Part shown: positions 2 to 30,085 of the stretch, piece after piece
Layout of the letters: every line of letters starts with the position of its first letter
Numbering within the stretch: position 1 is the first letter of the stretch
Origin: a virus
Virus record (IMG/VR): IMGVR_UViG_3300033233_001247
Coordinates: 1 to 35,883 of that record
Reading direction: 5' to 3' (one strand)
DNA length: 35,883 nt
Made by a program: the position numbers and the translations under genes
Notes under the pieces: model-generated
Databases searched by the model: none
Told to the model about the DNA's origin: nothing
Seen by the model: the letters and a program-made list of their open reading frames with translations, nothing else

Positions 2-1240
2 GCGGCGACCTGGAACCCGCGAGTCATGTCCGACCAGGAGCGCCGCGGCCTCGAGAGGAGCCTCGCGCGGTGGAAGTTGGTTGACCTGCCGATCTTCAAC
101 GTCCGCACCCAGGAGCTCGTGGGCGGTCACCAGCGCGTCCAGTGGCTCCGGTCGCAGTCGATCACCGAGGTGGCGATCGTGGTGCTCGACCTCGACGAGC
201 ACGAGGCCAAGGCGTTGAACATCACGCTCAACGACCGCCGGGCGCAGGGCCATTTCGTCGTCGACGATCTCGGCCCGCTCCTCAAGTCGATCGAGGACGG
301 CGCCCCCAAGCTGTACGCCGACGCCGACCTCGCCGGCTTGCTCAAGTCGTTCGATGTCGCCGGGCACACCAGGCGCAAGGTCGCCGGCGAGGGTGGCACG
401 CCGGAGGGCGACGACGACGAGCTCAAGCCCCCCGAGACGCCGCGGACGCGCGAGGGCGACCTCTGGATCCTCGGCGACCACCGGCTCCTCTGCGGCGACT
501 CGGAGCGCCCCGAGTCGATCGAGCTCGCGCGCGGCGGCCAGCCGATCATCTGCGTCATCACCGACCCGCCGTACGCGATCTACGGCTCGAGCACCGGCGT
601 CGATTCCGACGTCGCGGACGATCGGATGGTGCGGGCGTTCTTTGAAAAGATCTGGGGCCAGGCGCGCCGGTTTCTGCCGTGGGAGGGGCACGCCTACCTG
701 TTCTGCGACTGGCGGAGCTACCCCGCCGTCACCGAGGGCGCCCGCCGGTCCAAAATGGCGCCGCGCAACATGATCGTGTGGGACAAGTCGAGCGGCCTCG
801 GCTCGAACTACTCGAACGCCCACGAGCTCATCGCCTACCACGCCAAGGTCGCGAGCCGGACGTACATGAAAAAGAAGGCCAAGGCCGACGAGCAGGCCCC
901 GTACCGCGCGATCCTCCGGCCGAACGTCATCCGCATCTCCAAGGCGACCGGCGACGACAGGCCGCACAACGCGAGCAAGCCGGTCGACCTGGTGATCGAG
1001 CTGATCCAGAACAGCACGGCCGAGGGCGAGGCGGTGCTCGACATGTTCGGCGGCGGCGGCGCCACGCTGATCGCCTGCGAGCGGTCGAAGCGCCGGGCGG
1101 TGATGTGCGAGATCGATCCGCGGTGGTGCGACGTCATCGCCGCCCGGTGGGAGCGCGAGACCGGCAAGACCGCCCAGCTCGTGCCCGCGGCTGAGCTCGC
1201 GCCGGTGGTGCTGCCCGAGCCGGTCGCCGAGCCGGCGTGA
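2..1240 (+). CDS. ParB-like domain / DNA adenine methyltransferase fusion (5' partial)
   Basis: Probably modifies DNA by N6-adenine methylation, either to protect phage DNA from restriction or for regulation. Counting from the ATG at 26, a ParB/sulfiredoxin-like domain occupies about residues 1-110, with the motif GGHQR at 33-37. A beta-class methyltransferase domain follows, with the catalytic DPPY at 180-183 and the cofactor-binding loop FGGGG at 341-345 near the C-terminus. DPPY favours adenine over cytosine-N4. This fusion is common in phages. The frame stays open to the left edge and reads AATWNPRV just before the ATG. NPR followed by an S-D-x-x-x-x-L helix is the usual start of this ParB fold, so the true start is probably outside the window. 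The next gene overlaps it by GTGA. Confidence 0.88.
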   Translation, partial: AATWNPRVMSDQERRGLERSLARWKLVDLPIFNVRTQELVGGHQRVQWLRSQSITEVAIVVLDLDEHEAKALNITLNDRRAQGHFVVDDLGPLLKSIEDGAPKLYADADLAGLLKSFDVAGHTRRKVAGEGGTPEGDDDELKPPETPRTREGDLWILGDHRLLCGDSERPESIELARGGQPIICVITDPPYAIYGSSTGVDSDVADDRMVRAFFEKIWGQARRFLPWEGHAYLFCDWRSYPAVTEGARRSKMAPRNMIVWDKSSGLGSNYSNAHELIAYHAKVASRTYMKKKAKADEQAPYRAILRPNVIRISKATGDDRPHNASKPVDLVIELIQNSTAEGEAVLDMFGGGGATLIACERSKRRAVMCEIDPRWCDVIAARWERETGKTAQLVPAAELAPVVLPEPVAEPA

Positions 1241-10412: not shown

Positions 10413-11719
10413 CACGAGGCTCGAACGAGCTGGGTGGTGTCGGTGAACGGGAGCTGGGCGTAGCTCTTGACCCCGGCCGAGCCGACGCGGACGTCGCCGG
10501 CGCCGCCGGTGACAGTGGTGGAGACGCCGACGCATTTGACCTGGGTGCCGTCGTGGATGTCGATCCCGACGTCGACGTTGGTGCCCACGACTTGCTGGAC
10601 CAGGATGTAGCCCGGTCCCTCGGTGTACACGCCCTGGCTCGCGCCGTTGATCTTCGTCTGCCGGACCCGCCCGTGGTTGCCGCCGCGGTAGGTGACGCCC
10701 GGGCAGGCCGCGCCGCTGCCGTCGGTCTTGGGCGAGATGATGTCGCACGAGTCGATCGAGAACCCGCCGCCCCTGGTGAAGTCGATGTAGTGCCCGAGCG
10801 GGTCGCAATTCTCGAACACGCTCTGACCGAAGAACTGGCCGCCGGCCTCGTGCATGCGCATCCCGAGCGCGCGGAAGTAGCTCTGCTGGATCGTCAGCTT
10901 GACGTCCTCGCCCGCAAAGAACCCGTCGTGGATGTAGCTCGCGTAGATCGTCGCGCTCGGTGACCCCTCGATGCTCCACCCCTGGATGTCGCAGAGCTCG
11001 AGGTTGAGCCGGCAGCGGCGCGACAGGAGCGAGATCCCGAACAGGTTGTTCGTCTTGAGGAACTTGATTCCCGAAAACGCGACGTCGCAGGGCGTGTCGA
11101 GCAGCGCGATGTAGTTGTAGGTCTCGGCGAGGTCGCCGAGCGCGAGCGTCGCCGTCTGGTCGAGCACCTGGACCGGCGCGGTGAAGCCGGCCGGCGCCGA
11201 CACGTAGACCTGGCTGTTGGGCCCAGCGGTGTTCGAGACGATGACGCCGGCCTCGCCGAGCTGCGAGCCGCGGACGAGTTTGCCGCGCAGAGCGTTCAGC
11301 GTGAAGTTGTTCGAGGTCGTGAGGGTGCAGAGCCCGTTGGTGGCATCCGATGCGGTGCCGGTGACGACGAGCGTGGCGAACACCGACGGCGTCGCGAACA
11401 CGGTGATCGGCGCCAGGGCAAGCTGCTGGAGGAACGCGCCGGAGCCGTCGATCAGCGTGTCGGTCGGCAGCGTCGACACCTTGGGCGGCATGAACCACCG
11501 CGCGCCGCCGGCGATGTCGGAGATGCCGGTGATGTCGATGCGCCACCGCGCGTCGTCGATCACGCTGGGGATACGGTCGAGCGCGCCGAGCAGGGTGGCG
11601 AGCGGCGCAGCCACGTCGCCCCGCGCGCCGTCGTTGCCGCCCGGGCGCACCACGAGCGTCTTGACCGGCAGCGGCCGAGCTCGCGGCGCCCGCGTGTTGC
11701 CGACGTGCGAGCCGCTCAC
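10412..11719 (-). CDS. Beta-helix tail spike / fibre-like protein
   Basis: A 435-residue protein read from a GTG at 11719 that overlaps the previous stop (GTGA). The middle and C-terminal parts show many short beta-strand turns with repeated N, D and G positions (for example NLELCDIQGWSIEGS, QSVFENCDPLGHYIDF, FSIDSCDIISPK). This is the pattern of right-handed parallel beta-helix proteins such as pectate-lyase-like tailspikes. These proteins bind and often cut surface polysaccharides. No catalytic residues can be assigned by eye. It lies next to other probable fibre genes at the distal end of the tail block. The open frame extends upstream, but that part is an arginine-rich shadow. Confidence 0.7.
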   Translation of the reverse strand: MSGSHVGNTRAPRARPLPVKTLVVRPGGNDGARGDVAAPLATLLGALDRIPSVIDDARWRIDITGISDIAGGARWFMPPKVSTLPTDTLIDGSGAFLQQLALAPITVFATPSVFATLVVTGTASDATNGLCTLTTSNNFTLNALRGKLVRGSQLGEAGVIVSNTAGPNSQVYVSAPAGFTAPVQVLDQTATLALGDLAETYNYIALLDTPCDVAFSGIKFLKTNNLFGISLLSRRCRLNLELCDIQGWSIEGSPSATIYASYIHDGFFAGEDVKLTIQQSYFRALGMRMHEAGGQFFGQSVFENCDPLGHYIDFTRGGGFSIDSCDIISPKTDGSGAACPGVTYRGGNHGRVRQTKINGASQGVYTEGPGYILVQQVVGTNVDVGIDIHDGTQVKCVGVSTTVTGGAGDVRVGSAGVKSYAQLPFTDTTQLVRAS

Positions 11720-12453
11720 GCGCGATCCCGGAGAAAGAGATTGACCGTGGTGCCGGCGACCAGCGCGCCGCCAGCGCTGCACTGGAGGATCAGCGTGGTC
11801 TGGGTCTGGAACGCCGGATCGCTCTCGAGGTCGGCGGTGGGCGCCTCGGCGAACGGCAGCGCGCACACCTCGGCCTCGGCGATGAACGAGGCGTCCCGCA
11901 TGCCGGTGCCGGGGATGGTAACGACGTCGCTCGGGCCGGTCGCGCTCCACGTCCACACGAACGAGCGCTCACGCTGGTCCTGGGTCGCGGCGAGGTCGCC
12001 GGGAACGGTCGGCGCTGGCGGCGTGCCGGTCGGCGCCGCCATCGAGTCGCCGAGGAGCCACCGGCCCGGGTAGACCACCACGCTGTGGCCGGTCGGGCGC
12101 GTGACCTGGACATCCCAGGCGAGCGCCATCGCGGGCAGGAACCGGGTGTCGAGCCCGGGCACCACCAGATCGTACTTACCGCGCCCGCGCGCCGCGGCCT
12201 TGGCGGCGGAGCGCTCGACGATCTTGCGGGCGCCGCGCACGCCGCGCTCGAACGGCGTGCGCGCCGTGAGCACCATGGAGTCCGCGCCGCCGATGTCGAG
12301 ATCGACCGGGCTGCCGAGCGGGTTGACCAGGTCGATCTTGAACGTGACGTCCTCGCCGCGGGTGATGGCGAGAGCTCGGCGCGGTCGCGCCGGAACCCAG
12401 CCGGCCCACGGCCGAGCTCCGTCGTCGAGCACCGCGACCAGGTCGATGAACAC
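11716..12453 (-). CDS. Distal tail protein with BppU/Ig-like N-terminus
   Basis: A 245-residue protein from a GTG at 12453. Residues about 30-140 resemble the N-terminal beta-sandwich of baseplate upper or fibre-base proteins: RGEDVTFKIDLVNPLGSPVD, then a strand SMVLTARTPF and later WDVQVTRPTGHS. The C-terminal part is beta-rich (TQTTLILQCSAGGALVAG) and may be a second sandwich. It is probably a structural protein that links fibres to the baseplate. Its neighbours are the beta-helix protein and the PKD-like protein. The family call is tentative. Confidence 0.6.
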   Translation of the reverse strand: MFIDLVAVLDDGARPWAGWVPARPRRALAITRGEDVTFKIDLVNPLGSPVDLDIGGADSMVLTARTPFERGVRGARKIVERSAAKAAARGRGKYDLVVPGLDTRFLPAMALAWDVQVTRPTGHSVVVYPGRWLLGDSMAAPTGTPPAPTVPGDLAATQDQRERSFVWTWSATGPSDVVTIPGTGMRDASFIAEAEVCALPFAEAPTADLESDPAFQTQTTLILQCSAGGALVAGTTVNLFLRDRA

Positions 12454-19736: not shown

Positions 19737-21020
19737 TCAGCCGATCTCGAACACGGCCTCGACACCAGCCTCGAGCTGGTAGCCGGCCGCGATCTCGTAG
19801 TAGTCCGGCGCGTAGGCGCCGTTGCTGTCGGGGATCAGCACGTCGCTCGTCTGGACGAGCAGGTTGCTGAACATGGTGGGGAGCGGCGTCATCGGGCCTG
19901 GCCGGCCATCGACGCCATCCTCGCCGTCGATGCCGGGCGGCCCCATCGGACCCTGCGGACCGATCGCGCCGCTCGAGCCGGCCGCGCCCGCCGGGCCAGG
20001 CGGACCGATCGCGCCGTCCTCGCCGTCGACGCCGTCGAGGCCCTGCGGACCTGTCGGGCCGGCCACGCCTTGCGGCCCCGTGTTTCCGATCGGCCCCTGC
20101 AACCCTTGCGGGCCGGGCGGGCCGTCGTTGCCGTCCGCGCCATCGGCGCCGTCGAGGCCCATCGGCCCGACGGGGCCAGCCACGCCTTGCGGCCCCGTGT
20201 TTCCGATCGGCCCCTGCGCGCCAGCGACGCCAGGCGGGCCGTCGTTGCCGTCCGCGCCATCCGCGCCGTCCATGCCCTGCGGGCCGGCAGGACCGGCGAC
20301 GCCCTGCGGTCCGGTGTTGCCGATCGGGCCCTGCGGTCCGGTGGGCCCCGGCGGCCCGTCGTTGCCGTCCGCGCCGTCGAGGCCATCCATCCCCTGCGCG
20401 CCCGCGGCGCCAGCGACGCCCTGCGGTCCGGTGTTGCCGATCGGACCCTGCGGACCCACCGGCCCCGGAGGTCCGTCGTTGCCGTCGGCGCCATCGATCC
20501 CGTCCATGCCCTGCGCGCCTGCCGGACCGGCGACGCCCTGCGCGCCGGTGTTGCCCTGGATCCCCTGGACGCCCTGCGGGCCAGGCGGCCCATCATTGCC
20601 GTCCGCGCCGTCGGCGCCGTCGATCCCGGGCACGCCTTGCGGACCCGTGAGCCCCTGCGGGCCGGAGCCACCGGTGGCGCCTTGCGGGCCCTGGGGTCCG
20701 GGCGGGCCGAGCTCGCCGTCGACGCCGTCGACGCCATCCATGCCGGCGGGACCTGGCGGGCCCGCTGCGCCGGTAGCTCCGTTCGCACCGCTCGCGCCGA
20801 CCGGCCCCGGCGGACCGAGCGGGCCCATCGGCCCCTCCTCGCCGTCGACGCCGGGCGGACCCATCGGGCCGACGCCGCCCGACACGGTCGCGTTGATGTA
20901 GTTGGCGAGAACCTCGGCGATGATGTCCCACGTCGAGCTCGTGCCCGCGTTCCACACGCGGCCGGCCACCTTGTAGGCGGTCTCCATCTGCGACGCGAGA
21001 TCGTGGGGGATGAGCGACAT
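19737..21020 (-). CDS. Collagen-like tail fibre protein
   Basis: A 427-residue fibre. Residues 1-50 are a non-repetitive helix-rich base ([17 protein letters not shown]...). From about residue 50 to 375 it is an almost unbroken run of Gly-X-Y triplets, which form a collagen triple helix. The last ~50 residues ([12 protein letters not shown]...) form a globular tip for trimer registration or receptor contact. Five successive units of 39 residues (13 triplets) repeat within it, each with acidic GMDG-DGADGND blocks and a QGVAG segment. Collagen-like fibres are known in phages. The gene starts two bases after the spike stop. Confidence 0.9.
20016..20600 (-). repeat. Five 117-bp tandem repeats in the collagen-like gene
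   Basis: Five direct repeats with an exact period of 117 bases (39 codons) are visible from the recurring GND codons at 20600, 20483, 20366, 20249 and 20132. Two adjacent units share a 39-base identical block (20062-20100 and 20179-20217). Others share a nearly identical block (from 20296 and from 20413). This suggests recent duplication or gene conversion, and probable variation in copy number. Confidence 0.9.
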
Positions 21021-23622: not shown

Positions 23623-24764
23623 CGCTGCGCCCCGAGCGCGGGGATGATCACGACGTCGCCGGGCCCGACGGTCGACGACGTCAGCCCGTTGTAGCGGCGG
23701 ATCGCGTCCCAGTCGCTCGCGTTGCCGTAGTAGCGGCGGGCGAACGTCCGCAGATCGTCGCCTTCGCGCACCACCACGACGTCCAGGACGTCCTCCTCGA
23801 TTGCGGCGAGCGCGGCCCGCCGACGCTGCGCGGACTCCTGGCGCAGCGCTCGAGCGGCGCGCGAGGCCCGGCGCTGGCCGCACTCGATCGAGATCTGCAC
23901 CGCCGGCGAGACGACGGTGAGATCGTCGACCTCGTCGCCCAGCGCGATCGCGCCCGACACGTGGCTGTCGATCTCGAGCGCGAGCTCGTCGGCCTGCTCG
24001 TGGAGGATCGACATCGTCGCCAGTGCCCGCCGCGTGGTCTCGAGCGGCGCGGTGACGCCGTCGAGCGACGCCCGCACCGCGTCGGCGGACTGCGAGATCG
24101 ACGCCTGGAGGTCGGCGATTCCGCGGTCGATCGACTCGAGGAACGTGGGGTCGAGCGAGTCGACCGCCTCGAACGAGAGCGCCTCGGTGGCGGTGTCGAG
24201 CTTGGCGGCGAGCGCCGCCGTCGACCGCGCGTTGTCGGCCGAGGTCGGCGACGGCAGCGCCTCGGCGCCCTCATCCTGGCCGATCCAGTCGAACTGGATC
24301 TCCCAATGACAGTCGTTCTCGGTGTCCCACTCCTGGTTGAACTCGATGATCCGGCCGATGCGCACGAGGTGCCAGAGCGACACCCGCACCGGCATGCCAC
24401 GGACCCGCATGTCGTCGACCAGCTTGCAGAGCTCGGCGACGCTGGCGATCGCGTTGTCGGACACGCTGATCGCCTCGTACCCGTCGATCATCTCCGAGGT
24501 CGCCGACGACACCGACGCCATCGCCAGGGTGCCCGACGATCGGTCGCCGAGGAATCGATCGTTCCATTCGCCCTTGAGCGTGCTGGGGAGCTCCTCGGCG
24601 CCGAGCGCTTGCTGGCCGCTGTTCGGGGATCCCGGGTAGCTCGTGTGGACGACGTTGTGCTTGCCGCCGACCTTGAACGGCCGCTCGCAGATCGCGCGAT
24701 CGCGTAGCGACAGCACGCGCTCGTCTCCGGCGAGCTCGCGGATCTCGAGGGTCCCGCCGCTCAC
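23619..24764 (-). CDS. LysM-domain tail/baseplate protein
   Basis: A 381-residue protein from a GTG overlapping the tape measure stop (GTGA). The C-terminal ~50 residues are a LysM-like domain (VREGDDLRTFARRYYG...WDAIRRYNG...VGPGDVVIIPA), which in phages often attaches baseplate components or contacts peptidoglycan, as in XkdP and gp53-like proteins. The central part is a helical coil (about 200-320), and the N-terminal ~170 residues are beta-rich. The longer open frame over the tape measure gene has a shadow composition and is excluded. Confidence 0.8.
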   Translation of the reverse strand: MSGGTLEIRELAGDERVLSLRDRAICERPFKVGGKHNVVHTSYPGSPNSGQQALGAEELPSTLKGEWNDRFLGDRSSGTLAMASVSSATSEMIDGYEAISVSDNAIASVAELCKLVDDMRVRGMPVRVSLWHLVRIGRIIEFNQEWDTENDCHWEIQFDWIGQDEGAEALPSPTSADNARSTAALAAKLDTATEALSFEAVDSLDPTFLESIDRGIADLQASISQSADAVRASLDGVTAPLETTRRALATMSILHEQADELALEIDSHVSGAIALGDEVDDLTVVSPAVQISIECGQRRASRAARALRQESAQRRRAALAAIEEDVLDVVVVREGDDLRTFARRYYGNASDWDAIRRYNGLTSSTVGPGDVVIIPALGAQR

Positions 24765-26548
24765 AGCCGGCCTCGCATCGCGTACAGCGGGGCGAACCCG
24801 CTCTGGAGCTTGCGATCGCTGAGTTTGATCAACTCGTCGCCGAACGTGGCGGCGATCCGGCCGGGGTCGAAGCCCTCGGCGAAGTTTTGCTGGACGTCGA
24901 AATGCGAGCCGCGGAAGTCGTTGTAGGTGGGCGGCGGCTTGCCGTCCCCCTTGTTCGCGGCCTTTTTCTTGATGAGGTCCGTGGTGATGTCGGACTCCTC
25001 CCACGCCTTCTGAAACGCACGCATCGGATGGTTGACGAACCACCAGGGCGAGTTGATCAGCTCGCTCATGACGTTGCCGATCGTGATGATCAGGCGGAGA
25101 GCCAGGTTGAGGCTCTCGGCCATCACCGCGATCTCCATCACGACCATCTTGATCGACTGATTCAGGAGGACGGTGAAGATCTTGTGCAGCGCATCCCACA
25201 GGGGCTGGAGCGACTGGATGATCGCTTGGATCTTCGCCCAGATCTCGCTGAAGGTCGCGCGCACCGACTTGGCGAGGTCGCTGCCGCTGGTCTGGATGTA
25301 GCGGAACGCCTTGTAGAGCATGAACAGCGCGGCGGCGATCGCGATGCCGTACGGGCCGAACTTGGCGGCGCTCGAGACCAGCGTCTCCATCGCCGAGCCG
25401 GAGGCCATGAGCTTGCCGAGCTGCGGGGAGATCTTGCCGACCATCCCGGTGATCCCCGCGCCGGTCGAGCTCATCCCCGCCATGCCTTGCTTGATGCGGG
25501 CGGCGTCGGCGATCGCGCGGCCGAAATTCATGCCGCCGGCGCCCGCCATCGACACCGGCCCGGCGCCCGCCGCCTTGCCCGCGCCGGCGAGCGCGCGGCC
25601 GAGGTTCTGCGCCCACGAGCCCGCCTTCATGCTCTTGGCGAGCTCGGCCACCGCGACCGTCTCCTTGGTGACCGCCGAGATCTTGGTGGCCTTGCCGATC
25701 GCCGAGGTGAGCGCGCCGGCGATGTTTCCGCCGATGCCCTTGCCGGTGAGCAGGTTCAGCACCTTGTTCCCGGCCATCGTCGCGGCGAACACCTTGGCCG
25801 CCGAGATGATCGCGTCCATGTGCTTGGTGACGAACTGAAAAAAGCTCGTCATTGCCGGGATCAGATTCTTGTAGATCTTCCCGACCACCTCGTCCCACGC
25901 GTCGGAGAGCTCGGCGCGCGCGCGCTTCATCTTGTCGTAGGCCGCCAGCGCGGCGTCGTCGACCAGGTCGGCGCCGTTCTTGGTGTCCCGCATGATCTTG
26001 CGGAACTCCTCGGGCCCTTGCTGGAGGCTCTTGAGCAATGCGGCGGCGTCGTTGCGGCCGATGCCGAACGACTTCATGAGGCCGCCGACGCCGACCTTGC
26101 CCGCCTGCGCCGCCTTCGAGAGCTGGAGGAGCTGCATCGTCATGTTGTCGTGGACGTCCACCCCCATGCGCTTCCAATCGCCTCGCATCTCCTGCCCGGC
26201 CTTGCCGGTGCGGGTGAGTTGCTTGGTCATGCGCAGGATGACGCCCTCGACGCGCTCGCCGGCGAACCCGGTGATCTCCAGGGCGTCGTGCATCGCGTGA
26301 ATATCCGCGGCGGACTCGCCGGTGGCCGTCTTGATCCGGCCGATCCGCTGGTAGAGCTGGTCGGTCGACCGCAGGCCCTCGCCGAGTGAGAACAGCGCGC
26401 CGAGACCCGCGACGCTCTTGAGGGTGTTGAGCATCCCGCCGAGGCCGCCGACCACCCGCCCCACCGCGCTGTTGACGCGGGTGAGCGCCTGGACGGCGGC
26501 GGTGTCGTGGATGACCAGATCCTCGCGGATCTCGTTGCGCTGAGACAC
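24761..26548 (-). CDS. Tape measure protein
   Basis: A 595-residue protein that sets tail length and is expected inside the tail tube. It is mostly helical, with glycine- and alanine-rich stretches. The N-terminus contains VNSAVGRVVGGLGGMLNTLKS, typical of tape measures. There are hydrophobic segments at about 235-255 and 405-425 (GIAIAAALFMLYKAF) and around 455-500. Using the usual 0.15 nm per residue, the length predicts a tail of roughly 90 nm. The start is GTG. It lies downstream of the tail chaperone, the standard position. Confidence 0.9.
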   Translation of the reverse strand: MSQRNEIREDLVIHDTAAVQALTRVNSAVGRVVGGLGGMLNTLKSVAGLGALFSLGEGLRSTDQLYQRIGRIKTATGESAADIHAMHDALEITGFAGERVEGVILRMTKQLTRTGKAGQEMRGDWKRMGVDVHDNMTMQLLQLSKAAQAGKVGVGGLMKSFGIGRNDAAALLKSLQQGPEEFRKIMRDTKNGADLVDDAALAAYDKMKRARAELSDAWDEVVGKIYKNLIPAMTSFFQFVTKHMDAIISAAKVFAATMAGNKVLNLLTGKGIGGNIAGALTSAIGKATKISAVTKETVAVAELAKSMKAGSWAQNLGRALAGAGKAAGAGPVSMAGAGGMNFGRAIADAARIKQGMAGMSSTGAGITGMVGKISPQLGKLMASGSAMETLVSSAAKFGPYGIAIAAALFMLYKAFRYIQTSGSDLAKSVRATFSEIWAKIQAIIQSLQPLWDALHKIFTVLLNQSIKMVVMEIAVMAESLNLALRLIITIGNVMSELINSPWWFVNHPMRAFQKAWEESDITTDLIKKKAANKGDGKPPPTYNDFRGSHFDVQQNFAEGFDPGRIAATFGDELIKLSDRKLQSGFAPLYAMRGRL

Positions 26549-26749
26549 CTAGCGCGGCCCCCGCGCCGCGAGCGCCTGATCGTGCTCCTCCTGGAGGAGC
26601 TGGGCGGCCTCCTTGGCCCACGCGTACACCTGTGTCATCGGCTCGTGCTGGACGAGCGACGCGGGCTGGTGTGCGTAGCGGCCGAGGAACATGAGGATCC
26701 GATCGATCTGAGCTATCCGGTTGTCTGGGTTCGGCCAGACGCGGGCCAT
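26549..26749 (-). CDS. Tail chaperone extension (gpGT-like T domain), likely made by -1 frameshift
   Basis: If translated alone it is 66 residues from ATG 26749 (MARVWPNPDNR...). However, it lies in the -1 frame of the gene before it and directly upstream of the tape measure gene. The frame is open back through the end of that gene, reading SQEPTPGPYLGGLALALR before the methionine, so it is probably expressed as a fusion. This is the classic organisation of tailed-phage tail assembly chaperones (G and GT, or P2 E and E+E'). No ribosome binding site is obvious for the ATG. A separate short gene is the alternative. Confidence 0.6.
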   Translation of the reverse strand: MARVWPNPDNRIAQIDRILMFLGRYAHQPASLVQHEPMTQVYAWAKEAAQLLQEEHDQALAARGPR

Positions 26750-26772
26750 CCTGAGGGCGAGCGCGAGCCCCC

Positions 26773-27312
26773 CTAGGTACGGACCCGGCGTCGGCTCTTG
26801 AGAAAATCCTTGGCGACGTCCTCCGTGGTCGTCTGGGTCGCGCCGTACGCCGACACGCACAGGTTGCGCATGGCCGGGTGCATTCCCGTCCAGGCCGCGT
26901 CGGCGGTGCTGTCGGTCACCGAGAGCGGCGTGAGCGGCTGGCGCTCGAGGCGCGCGACCGCGGCGTTGATGAGCTCGCCGGCGCCATCGCCCGCGGCCTT
27001 GAGCTCGGCCTCGCTCGGCCACCCCACGTCCTCGTCGAGCACGATGCCGGCGAGGGTCGAGATCGCGAGCTGGAACGCGAGGCCGCTCGGATCGCCGCCG
27101 CAGCGCTTGAGCGCCATCTTCTCCTCGGCGGCGGAGAGCGTCGCGAACGCGAGCCGGCGGATCTTGCCCTTGCGCCCACCCGGCAGCGACACCTCGCGCT
27201 GCTCGTCGTCCATGGTGAGGGGAACGTCGAACGTGTCGACCGGCCGCGCCGGCGGCGCCTTGAGCCCCTCGGCGAGTCCGCTGCGGATGTCCTGTGAAAA
27301 CGGCTGTCCCAT
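26773..27312 (-). CDS. Tail assembly chaperone (gpG/E-like)
   Basis: A 179-residue protein (MGQPFSQDIRSGLAEG...), probably the chaperone that holds the tape measure protein during tail assembly. It is helical and charged, and it lies between the tube and the tape measure genes. The start ATG 27312 is preceded by GGAGG at five bases. A TTG three codons earlier is possible but lacks this. Near the 3' end, a run TTTT in GATTTTCTC (26803-26806) precedes the stop by nine codons and is a candidate slippery point to the -1 frame. Confidence 0.75.
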   Translation of the reverse strand: MGQPFSQDIRSGLAEGLKAPPARPVDTFDVPLTMDDEQREVSLPGGRKGKIRRLAFATLSAAEEKMALKRCGGDPSGLAFQLAISTLAGIVLDEDVGWPSEAELKAAGDGAGELINAAVARLERQPLTPLSVTDSTADAAWTGMHPAMRNLCVSAYGATQTTTEDVAKDFLKSRRRVRT

Positions 27313-27384: not shown

Positions 27385-27828
27385 TCAGCGGAAGATCAGG
27401 CCCGCGGTCTCGGCGCCGTAGGTGAACCGGAAGGATCCGTGATCCTCGCGGCCACTGACGCCCACCGGGATGTCGCCGAACTTGGCGTCCGGCATCGTGA
27501 TCAGCGCGCGCCGCCCGTTCTCGGGGAACACGATGACCGTCTTGACGGTGACCTTGGGGATCGGCGGGACGCGGCGCTGGGCGCGCGCCATGATGGTCGA
27601 GACCAGCTCGAGCACCGAGCCGTCCGAATCGTGCGCCTCGAACGCGCCGGAGATGCCCTTGAACACCTCGTCGAGGCGGTCCGAGAGCTCGCCCACGTAG
27701 CCCTTCTCGATCATGTTGATCTTGACGGTGAACTCGTGGGAGGCGATCGCGGTGATGTTCGACAGCGGCTTGCCGTCGACGGAGATCAGGAGCTCCGTGT
27801 CCTGTCCGATGAAGCGAGGTGCCGTCAT
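27385..27828 (-). CDS. Tail tube protein
   Basis: A 147-residue protein (MTAPRFIGQDTELLISVDG...). The small size, beta-rich make-up and place between sheath and chaperone match the myophage tail tube. The central section ASHEFTVKINMIEKGYVGE and the C-terminus GSFRFTYGAETAGLIFR are typical beta strands of tube subunits. The ATG at 27828 is chosen because an upstream TTG (27861) has no ribosome binding site. The assignment is by size and gene order more than by motif. Confidence 0.7.
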   Translation of the reverse strand: MTAPRFIGQDTELLISVDGKPLSNITAIASHEFTVKINMIEKGYVGELSDRLDEVFKGISGAFEAHDSDGSVLELVSTIMARAQRRVPPIPKVTVKTVIVFPENGRRALITMPDAKFGDIPVGVSGREDHGSFRFTYGAETAGLIFR

Positions 27829-27862
27829 GGCGGGGTGGTTTCTCCTGGTGTCCGAAAGCAAG

Positions 27863-28078: not shown

Positions 28079-30085
28079 TTACGCCGCCAGCGAGACCGAC
28101 ACGTCGATCACGCCGTAGCCGACCTTGCTGTCGACCACGAGCACCTCGGCGATCGAGATCATCTCGACCAGGTGCTTGACCACGAACACGCCGGCGTTCT
28201 CGAGGTCGGGGCGGTTGCCGCCGATCGGGTCGACGATGTAGTCGCGGATCCGGGCGGCGCTCGGGACGCGCGTGCTCTTGAGCCCGTCGAAGAACTCGAT
28301 GTGACGCGCCACCGTCTCGTCCTTGAGCTGCTCGGACATCGGCAGCTTGGCCAGCGGCGCCAGGAACGCGGCGAGGCTGTCCTGAATGAAGAACGAGAAC
28401 CGGCGGACGTTGATCTCCTTCTCACCGGCGTTGAGCGAGCTCGTGACGCCCGACTGGAAGATCGGCCCGCTGTTGCGGTCGATCCGCGGCCCCATGATGC
28501 CGCGCGCCTTCATGCGCTTGTAGACGTTGATGTCCATGCCGGCGGGGAGGCCGCTCTGGAGGCCGACCACCTTGGCCATCGCCGTCTTGATGTTGTCGGA
28601 CGCCTCGCCCGGGTTCCGCTCGGGCGCGATCACCGACTCGCACATGACGGCGAAGCCGTCGCTGGGCACGTCGAGGTAGCCGTCGGTGACGAGCACGCCG
28701 GTCGCGATCTTGACCGACTTGCCGACCGCCTCCTTCACGAAGGTCAGCACGCCGGGCCAGTTGTAGACCACCTCGCGCGCGCGGTTGGCGCCGACGCCGG
28801 GCGCGACGTCGCCGAGCACCGTCGAGACGTTGACCTGCGACAGCGCCGGCGCGATGTGCGCCATCCGGCCGATCCCGTTTTGCTTCTGCCGCAGCACGTG
28901 GGCGCGCAGGAGCGTCGCGATCGTGTCGGAGTGCCGCGCGCTCCACATGATGTTGACCTCGCGCTCGGGGAGATCGTCGGCGAGGAGCGCATTGATCGCG
29001 CTGTCGTAGAGCGAGTCGATCGCGGCGTTGTTCACCGCGTTCGGCGCCTGGATCGTCGCGGTGTACACGAGCCCGGTGACCGGCGCGCTGCGCGCCATGA
29101 GGCCGGACAGCGGCGCCGCGGTGGTGCCGGTGAGCGCGTCGGGCACCACGGTCGGGGTCAGGAGCAGGTTGATCGCGATCGTCGCGTCGAGCGGGCGCGC
29201 CGGGATCCGGTAGCCCGACTGGGTCGCGACCGCCGCGAGCCCGCCGGTGTCGGCGACGTCGCCCGGGTGGATCCGGTAGGGCAGGTTCGTGGTCGTGGTC
29301 CAGTCGAAGTTGGTGCCGTCGAGCTTCTCGAGCGAGAGCGCGGTGCCCGACGTGACCAGGCGGACGCGGTAGGTGTCCGCGTTGGCGCCGAGCGCGCCGG
29401 CGCCGCCGATGACACCGATGACGACGATGTCGCCGACCTGGACGCCGGTCTTGCCGTCCGGGCGCACGAAGGTCTGGAACGTGCCCGAGGCGCTGGTGAA
29501 CGACTGGAACGCCGCAGCGCCGGCGGAGGTCGCGCCGCCGTCGGTCGCACTCCAGTAGTAGACCGTGCCCTGGAACCGCACGCGCGCGGCCAGGTGGACG
29601 CGGTTGTTGCCGTTCTTGAACTCGGTGCCGGCGGCGACGGCCGCGCCGGTCACCTCGACGATCGGGTTCGGATCGGTGGCGCTCGTGCACGTCGCGAGCT
29701 TGCGCCACACGCGGATGCCCTGCGAGCTCGCGTAGTTGATCGGCGCCGCGACCAGGCGCGGGAACCGCTTGTTCTTGAGCTCGAGCCAGCCGTTGCCGCC
29801 GACGCCGCCGAACTCGCCGAGGGTCTCGTCGAAGCCGCCGAGCTTGTCGTCGAGGTCGGCCGAGCTGAACACCTCCACCGGCTGGCAGAGCGTGGTCACC
29901 ACGCCGTTGGCGTCGATGTTCACGCCGTAGGTGCAGTCGGCGAACTCCCCGATGATGCACGCCACACCGGAGCCGATGCCGGCGACCTGGCCGGGCTGTT
30001 GGCCGTCGATGACGACGACGCCCTCGATCTCGGTGAGGGTCTCCTTGGGGGGCATGGTGTCGAAGCGACGAAAGAAACCGGACAT
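28079..30085 (-). CDS. Tail sheath protein
   Basis: A 668-residue contractile sheath protein, close to the length of T4 gp18 (659). The N-terminus contains IEGVVVIDGQQPGQVAGIGS, the loop that begins most sheath proteins. The C-terminal part holds KARGIMGPRIDRNSGPIF, NVRRFSFFIQDSLAAFL and a final beta strand VGYGVIDVSVSL, where sheath subunits mesh. The central region is a large beta domain. A strong ribosome binding site TAAGGAGG precedes the ATG, fitting the high amount required. Downstream are two hairpins and the tube gene. Confidence 0.9.
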   Translation of the reverse strand: MSGFFRRFDTMPPKETLTEIEGVVVIDGQQPGQVAGIGSGVACIIGEFADCTYGVNIDANGVVTTLCQPVEVFSSADLDDKLGGFDETLGEFGGVGGNGWLELKNKRFPRLVAAPINYASSQGIRVWRKLATCTSATDPNPIVEVTGAAVAAGTEFKNGNNRVHLAARVRFQGTVYYWSATDGGATSAGAAAFQSFTSASGTFQTFVRPDGKTGVQVGDIVVIGVIGGAGALGANADTYRVRLVTSGTALSLEKLDGTNFDWTTTTNLPYRIHPGDVADTGGLAAVATQSGYRIPARPLDATIAINLLLTPTVVPDALTGTTAAPLSGLMARSAPVTGLVYTATIQAPNAVNNAAIDSLYDSAINALLADDLPEREVNIMWSARHSDTIATLLRAHVLRQKQNGIGRMAHIAPALSQVNVSTVLGDVAPGVGANRAREVVYNWPGVLTFVKEAVGKSVKIATGVLVTDGYLDVPSDGFAVMCESVIAPERNPGEASDNIKTAMAKVVGLQSGLPAGMDINVYKRMKARGIMGPRIDRNSGPIFQSGVTSSLNAGEKEINVRRFSFFIQDSLAAFLAPLAKLPMSEQLKDETVARHIEFFDGLKSTRVPSAARIRDYIVDPIGGNRPDLENAGVFVVKHLVEMISIAEVLVVDSKVGYGVIDVSVSLAA

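Follow-up and report, generated by a model that had tools for sequence, protein, structure and literature searches.

Tail genes and reading frames in the window

The DNA considered here (the window) is an entire virus record of 35,883 bases and 71% G+C, from an uncultured, contractile-tailed phage whose tail genes lie on the minus strand. The tail sheath gene (28079-30085, minus strand, 668 amino acids) was recognized by alignment with its relatives and served as the anchor for finding more of them. The window sheath has no PHROG match and no Pfam match above the Pfam cut-off; in one relative (L011) the sheath matches, at 35.9% across 15% of the query, a protein of Alicyclobacillus phage MMB025 annotated as 'tail sheath protein'. 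A presumed tail tube gene follows (27385-27861, minus strand, 158 amino acids), assigned from its position and from a homologue in another relative (L002) at 38% identity; its product has no family match in Pfam or PHROG. Between this tube gene, known from position and homology only, and the tail tape measure gene (24761-26548, minus strand, 595 amino acids, GTG start; PHROG 167 at E 9.5e-10 and PHROG 991 at E 1.6e-8) sits a tail-assembly-chaperone-like gene (26773-27312, minus strand, 179 amino acids, ATG start and TAG stop), an open reading frame with homologues in the relatives. A baseplate wedge match in the window (PHROG 6, E 7.5e-41) agrees with a contractile tail. In addition, a tail fibre gene (19740-21020, minus strand) carries a long collagen-like repeat (Pfam Collagen, E 1.1e-51), and a DNA methyltransferase with a ParB-like N-terminal part (2-1237, plus strand; PHROG 498, E 2.4e-72) is cut by the window end.

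The chaperone frame ends at the TAG at 26775-26773. The frame shifted by -1 is free of stops from far upstream down to its own stop at 26551-26549, and the GTG of the tape measure gene follows directly, at 26548. The open -1 frame reported by an earlier reading of the sequence alone is thus borne out by the open reading frames. The chaperone 3' end reads GAC GTC GCC AAG GAT TTT CTC AAG AGC CGA CGC CGG GTC CGT ACC TAG, and the -1 frame across the same bases reads FSQEPTPGPYLGGLALALRMARVWPNPDNR and onward. The -1 frame extension (26549-26803, minus strand, 84 amino acids plus stop) would form the C-terminal part of a fusion of 170 + 84 = 254 residues, in agreement with the length of about 254 proposed earlier, and the predicted tryptic junction peptide of that fusion is DFSQEPTPGPYLGGLALALR.

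At 71% G+C an open -1 frame is weak evidence in itself, since half (50%) of random 84-codon reading windows in the window sequence are equally stop-free. We therefore rejected the length of the open frame as sufficient proof, and built the case on relatives. A stronger sign within the window is the codon-position G+C of the -1 stretch (0.76/0.46/0.87 vs 0.70/0.52/0.94 in the chaperone), which is coding-like.

The window chaperone has no match in Pfam, PHROGs or NCBIfam, and neither does the extension. The 27 chaperone members of the first set of relatives (see below) gave one weak PHROG hit (E 0.0024), one weak Pfam hit (E 0.016) and matches to two NCBIfam models whose names are unrelated (best E 1.2e-4; one or two members per model); these weak single hits were taken as chance, and a missing family match does not in itself speak against a chaperone. 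The AlphaFold2 model of the chaperone (pLDDT 89.4) had no Foldseek hit in the PDB at E 0.001. Among 909 aligned PDB chains only three reached Z 2, with modest values: YqbN 3klu (Z 6.0, rmsd 6.7, 102 aligned), the HK97 tail assembly chaperone 2ob9 (Z 4.4, rmsd 5.7, 102 aligned) and 5ir0 (Z 4.4, rmsd 3.9, 83 aligned). In a BFVD fold search the best match was an uncharacterized protein of an uncultured phage (E 7.5e-5). The model of the extension (pLDDT 79) is a small, helical domain, for which a PDB search gave nothing at E 0.001. The Z values of the chaperone matches are modest by the standard of the tool itself, and what matters is that they agree with the position of the gene. Considering that neither part has a convincing family match, the role as a chaperone is suggested by gene position together with a weak fold match.

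Conservation of the frame and the site among relatives

Searching with the window sheath as query yielded a first relative, L002, which shares with the window a run of 13 identical bases, TTTTCTCAAGAGC, within poorly conserved surroundings. A two-row sheath alignment (window plus L002) then gave 41 loci, or 42 records with the window, and profiles of the chaperone and the extension found both parts in 27. Of the other 15, L020 has a chaperone with AGT_TTT_TTC on a contig that ends 37 nt past the chaperone stop, L024 has a cut chaperone, and in L017, L021, L027 and L028 the contig runs out within 470 nt of the sheath match. The contigs of L030, L032, L034, L036, L037, L038 and L040 stop within the sheath match or where it ends. 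In L015 (G001:54048) and L019 (G002:36149) both parts lie farther along the contigs, and these were counted in the second set as L043 and L044. In these two the sheath lies far from the chaperone-extension genes, unlike the loci where they adjoin, and is followed by long, repetitive-looking open reading frames.

The second, held-out set was fetched afterwards with an alignment of 20 sheaths, and the site rule of the first set (NNT_TTY or AAA_AAR close to the chaperone end) was applied to it. Its 80 loci, less 24 repeats under new ids and 7 under old ids, leave 49, and L043 and L044 bring it to 51, of which 42 have both parts. Among the misses, the contigs of L060, L078, L083, L089, L102 and L112 run out no more than 600 nt past the sheath match, L062 and L077 have neither part in the whole record, and L086 carries both parts elsewhere on its contig, in the -1 relation and with GAT_TTT, and stands outside the 69-locus set. 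With this one added as a later locus (L120), 70 records have both parts: 27, window included, plus 42 held out plus one. Once loci more than 90% identical at the site, across about 120 nt, are set aside, 59 of the 69 remain as non-redundant (23 from the first set, 36 from the second).

Other routes to relatives gave little. Single-query searches of viral contigs with the chaperone, tape measure and tube returned nothing, as did the major head protein against viral contigs and both the chaperone query and the sheath alignment against genome contigs. Searches of deposited phages by tblastn with the window chaperone, tape measure, baseplate protein and sheath, and with the L041 chaperone and L082 sheath, also found nothing; with the sheaths of three members as queries, a single weak match turned up among 50,697 deposited phage records. 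The numbering of the L082 contig (2710264767) resembles, we assume, that of an isolate or single-cell genome and not of a metagenome, and may lead to a host. In L035, a 436-residue open frame at about 11117-12427, between the extension and the next long open reading frame, presumably has DNA methyltransferase-like motifs.

The second frame is in the -1 relation in 27/27 first-set records, in 42/42 held-out loci and in the later locus, and in none of the 70 is it in frame or +1; the extension profile behind these counts was seeded with 8 loci already seen in -1, and the first-set profiles were reused on the held-out set. The extension itself is conserved in the relatives, in a domain around the motif GRYGHQ. 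At the aligned position all 70 records have NNT_TTY or A_AAA_AAR, by a rule that demands a T or lysine run; a recount on the Phe codon without the rule gave the same result. Counted in that way, a Phe codon lies 8-12 codons before the chaperone stop in 59/59 non-redundant loci. It follows a codon ending in T in 56 of them (T_TTY); in the other three AAG or AAA precedes it, and A_AAA_AAA or A_AAA_AAG stands at the corresponding place. T_TTY accounts for 39 of the 42 held-out loci and A_AAA_AAG for 3. A lack of conservation of the slippery run or of the -1 frame, along with a missing fusion product, had been named beforehand as grounds for abandoning the frameshift, and the comparison of relatives that had been proposed as a check finds both conserved.

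How unusual is such a site? In long open reading frames of the first-set loci a T precedes Phe in 186/2355 cases, and Phe is TTT in 316/2360 background cases vs 18/22 of the first T-type sites; this background comes from open reading frames of at least 400 codons with lowest G+C at position 2, which in the window include some possible non-genes. Over the 59 loci the slip codon is TTT in 50, TTC in 6, AAG in 2 and AAA in 1, and the distance from its end to the end of the chaperone stop is 24-33 nt in 69/69 loci. The codon before Phe at T-type sites is GAT, GGT, AGT, TCT, GCT, AAT, CTT, GTT or CAT, and since these specify eight amino acids, the T before Phe is not kept for the sake of the protein. 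The loci are related and are therefore not independent trials; their chaperone ends have a median identity of 22% over all pairs of the 69. The slip site has thus been kept by dozens of distant relatives despite strong divergence of the surrounding proteins.

Register of the proposed slip and competing explanations

The predicted shift site of the window is G_GAT_TTT (26803-26809, minus strand), with the tetramer T_TTT at 26806-26803. As the sequence-only reading had stated, this is the sole TTTT near the 3' end of the gene, the second TTTT in the gene beginning at 27300, at the 5' end; moreover, GATTTT is the sole in-frame NNT_TTY within it. An in-frame scan for X_XXY_YYZ heptamers before the chaperone stop found none. 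The only heptamer of this kind, the canonical G_GGG_GGC at 26773-26767 (minus strand), was rejected as too far downstream, its first base being the last base of the chaperone stop codon. G_GAT_TTT is not a canonical X_XXY_YYZ either: the A site re-pairs, TTT with TTT, and the P site only partly, GAT with GGA. It does place three equal -1-frame bases under the slipping tRNA, as a Z_ZZN tetramer should.

The relatives point the same way. The 59 loci have 22 different heptamers, G_GAT_TTT being the commonest (11), followed by G_GGT_TTT (8). Re-pairing in the P site would be canonical in 17, would keep the first pair in 15 and the second in 2, and would keep neither in 25. The part that is held is thus U_UUY, whose first U is the wobble base of the preceding codon, and this is the Z_ZZN tetramer as described by Sharma et al. 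2014 (PMC4066793).

In which ribosomal site does the Phe tRNA sit when it slips? The sequence-only reading placed the slip at the T run, and in this it stands, but it took the register to be T_TTT_CTC, with the P site on TTT and the A site on CTC, and hence expected the latter to re-pair poorly. We prefer G_GAT_TTT, with Phe in the A site, because the wobble T and TTY are conserved and the next codon varies among ten (CTC 25, CTG 11, TTG 6, TTC 5, AAG 2, TTA 2, ATC 2, CTA 1, CGC 1, CTT 1). A version of the P-site register in which only the Phe tRNA shifts between the two UUU triplets, the A site ahead being empty or at CUC and UCU being read next, seems to us rather unlikely. It requires the same bases and would give the identical product, and slippage in the P site alone is backed by experiments on a dnaX variant, as described in PMC5009743. 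CTN does follow the Phe codon in 38/56 sites; however, a conserved Leu of the protein can explain this, and the codon after TTY is one of ten. The E. coli rules set out in PMC4066793 also have efficient slippage occur on an A-site ZZN codon.

Shifting at such sequences has precedents. G_GAU_UUU is listed in the review of Atkins et al. 2016 (PMC5009743) as the shift site of pea enation mosaic virus. In the E. coli work described in PMC4066793, U_UUU and U_UUC tetramers shift with a strong stimulator, U_UUC and U_UUU ranking second and third among tetramers with a pseudoknot (Sharma et al. 2014); the six best shift at 0.26 to 5.6% with a strong pseudoknot and are barely shifty without one. The efficiency in the window may be low, since the P-site GAU would re-pair with GGA only partly. 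In the relevant passage of PMC3483164, GGATTTT is not a shift site, and a literature search for GGAUUUU as slippery or frameshift sequence returned, among the matches listed, eukaryotic viruses only, besides the review PMC5009743.

If the second frame were an ordinary overlapping gene with its own start, no slippage would be needed. The -1 frame of the window indeed has an ATG (26750) 24 nt past the chaperone stop, and some ATG, GTG or TTG occurs in the scanned stretch in 18/27 first-set records. However, the ATG at 26750 has no Shine-Dalgarno sequence at the usual spacing (the preceding bases are GCGCTCGCCCTC) and falls inside the conserved region. Moreover, in 21/59 loci the -1 frame offers no ATG, GTG or TTG in the stretch that begins 60 nt ahead of the slip and stops 30 nt short of the conserved core, so that initiation at such a codon cannot be the usual route, and a separate start would leave the fixed NNT_TTY unexplained. 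In 19/59 loci the 30 nt upstream of the slip contain a stop in the -1 frame, and both features, no start codon and a closed frame upstream, coincide in 4/59. We consider a separate start very unlikely. Slippage of RNA polymerase on the T run, giving mixed mRNAs that are read normally, is more doubtful still: a homopolymer is present, but four T's are short, transcriptional realignment being cited in PMC3711429 for T runs longer than 8, and the position of the T follows the codon phase, to which transcription is blind. That the gene is broken or mis-sequenced, conceivable for a single contig, has next to no credibility when the same frame break recurs in 70/70 records with both parts.

Two candidate stimulators flank the site. 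A predicted stem-loop (26734-26795, minus strand) begins 7 nt after the slip codon and contains the chaperone stop codon; the segment 26799-26730 folds at -40.1 kcal/mol (z -2.89), and 1/200 shuffles is as stable. In a scan of 51-nt folds over the 59 loci the mean z reaches its lowest value at the slip codon (-1.14 +/- 0.22), against a background outside offsets -60 to +40 of mean z -0.18 (sd 0.21). The mean peak is uneven among loci: at offset +12, which ranked only 7th of 76 in structure signal over 23 loci, z is positive in L005, L022, L029 and L033. The second candidate is a Shine-Dalgarno-like GGAGGA upstream of the site (26819-26824, minus strand). The corresponding duplex energy is at or below -7 kcal/mol in 19/27 first-set loci, and the core is absent in 4/27 (L008, L009, L014 and L033). 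Synonymous recoding gives a mean of -7.44 vs the observed -8.70 (mean z -0.51), and this GGAGG-like signal is mostly explained by conserved acidic residues of the protein.

A putative frameshift and its counterparts in known systems

We infer, with high confidence, that a -1 programmed frameshift at G_GAT_TTT yields a 254-residue fusion beside the 179-residue chaperone, and its location at 26806-26803 is very likely. Most ribosomes would read the chaperone gene to the TAG and produce the 179-residue protein. A minority would slip back one base at G_GAU_UUU when GAU is paired with tRNA-Asp in the P site and UUU with tRNA-Phe in the A site; the tRNA-Phe would re-pair fully with UUU and the tRNA-Asp partly with GGA, and these ribosomes would go on to read UCU CAA GAG onward in the -1 frame into the fusion. 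The stem-loop 7 nt downstream is a probable stimulator of the slip, and the upstream GGAGGA perhaps also stimulates. If lambda gpG/gpGT is a guide, the tape measure protein would be coated by the short form, and the extension at the C terminus of the fusion would recruit the tube subunit.

Judged from sequence, this putative frameshift is of a known recoding kind, the gpG/gpGT type; its chaperone group has no counterpart in the libraries searched, and its P-site codon is unusually free. Perhaps it is driven by little more than the A-site U_UUY. We lean slightly towards selection acting on single-tRNA slippage, and not on a two-tRNA heptamer, because the P-site codon has changed among nine codons, for eight amino acids, and has kept only its last base.

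Programmed frameshifting fixes the ratio of two proteins that many phage tails require. The 59 distinct natural sites, with 22 heptamers, hold the tetramer and vary in the P-site codon, the flanking codons and the stem-loop, and form a series ready for measuring what each of these contributes. The locus set also permits annotation of the chaperone and the fusion in an uncultured lineage. Searches restricted to X_XXY_YYZ would catch 17/59 sites in the register used here. PRFect admits looser backward motifs, including 'twoonefour' in the description in PMC10885494, and G_GA_TTTT may fit that motif. Our search of the open literature found no paper joining tail assembly chaperone, frameshift and tetramer.

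The lambda gpG/gpGT gene is located before the tape measure gene, and its shift site is G_GGA_AAG. Like the system proposed here, it has a short chaperone and, by a shift close to the 3' end, a -1 fusion product, as summarized in PMC5009743. Unlike lambda, the present phage has a contractile tail and the site G_GAT_TTT, and no shared sequence family was found. The P2-type E / E' frameshift, at T_TTT_TTG, shares the contractile tail and a T-rich site, and T_TTT_TTG itself occurs in relatives such as L014, L031 and L041; in contrast to P2, the following TTN codon is absent in 43/56 T-type sites here. Phage Mu has a gene order around FS-gp41 similar to that of the window, and FS-gp41 ranked third in the viral fold search (E 0.012). 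The shift in Mu is however -2 (as stated in PMC5009743) vs the -1 proposed here.

Two systems outside phage tails come closer in the site itself. The heptamer of pea enation mosaic virus RNA 2, G_GAU_UUU as listed in PMC5009743, is identical to that of the window, but belongs to a plant RNA virus with 80S ribosomes and different stimulators. The Z_ZZN frameshifting of IS elements on U_UUU and U_UUC (PMC4066793) serves transposase genes of the IS1 and IS3 families, whereas a tail gene is concerned here; what the two have in common is the constant part of the site, U_UUY.
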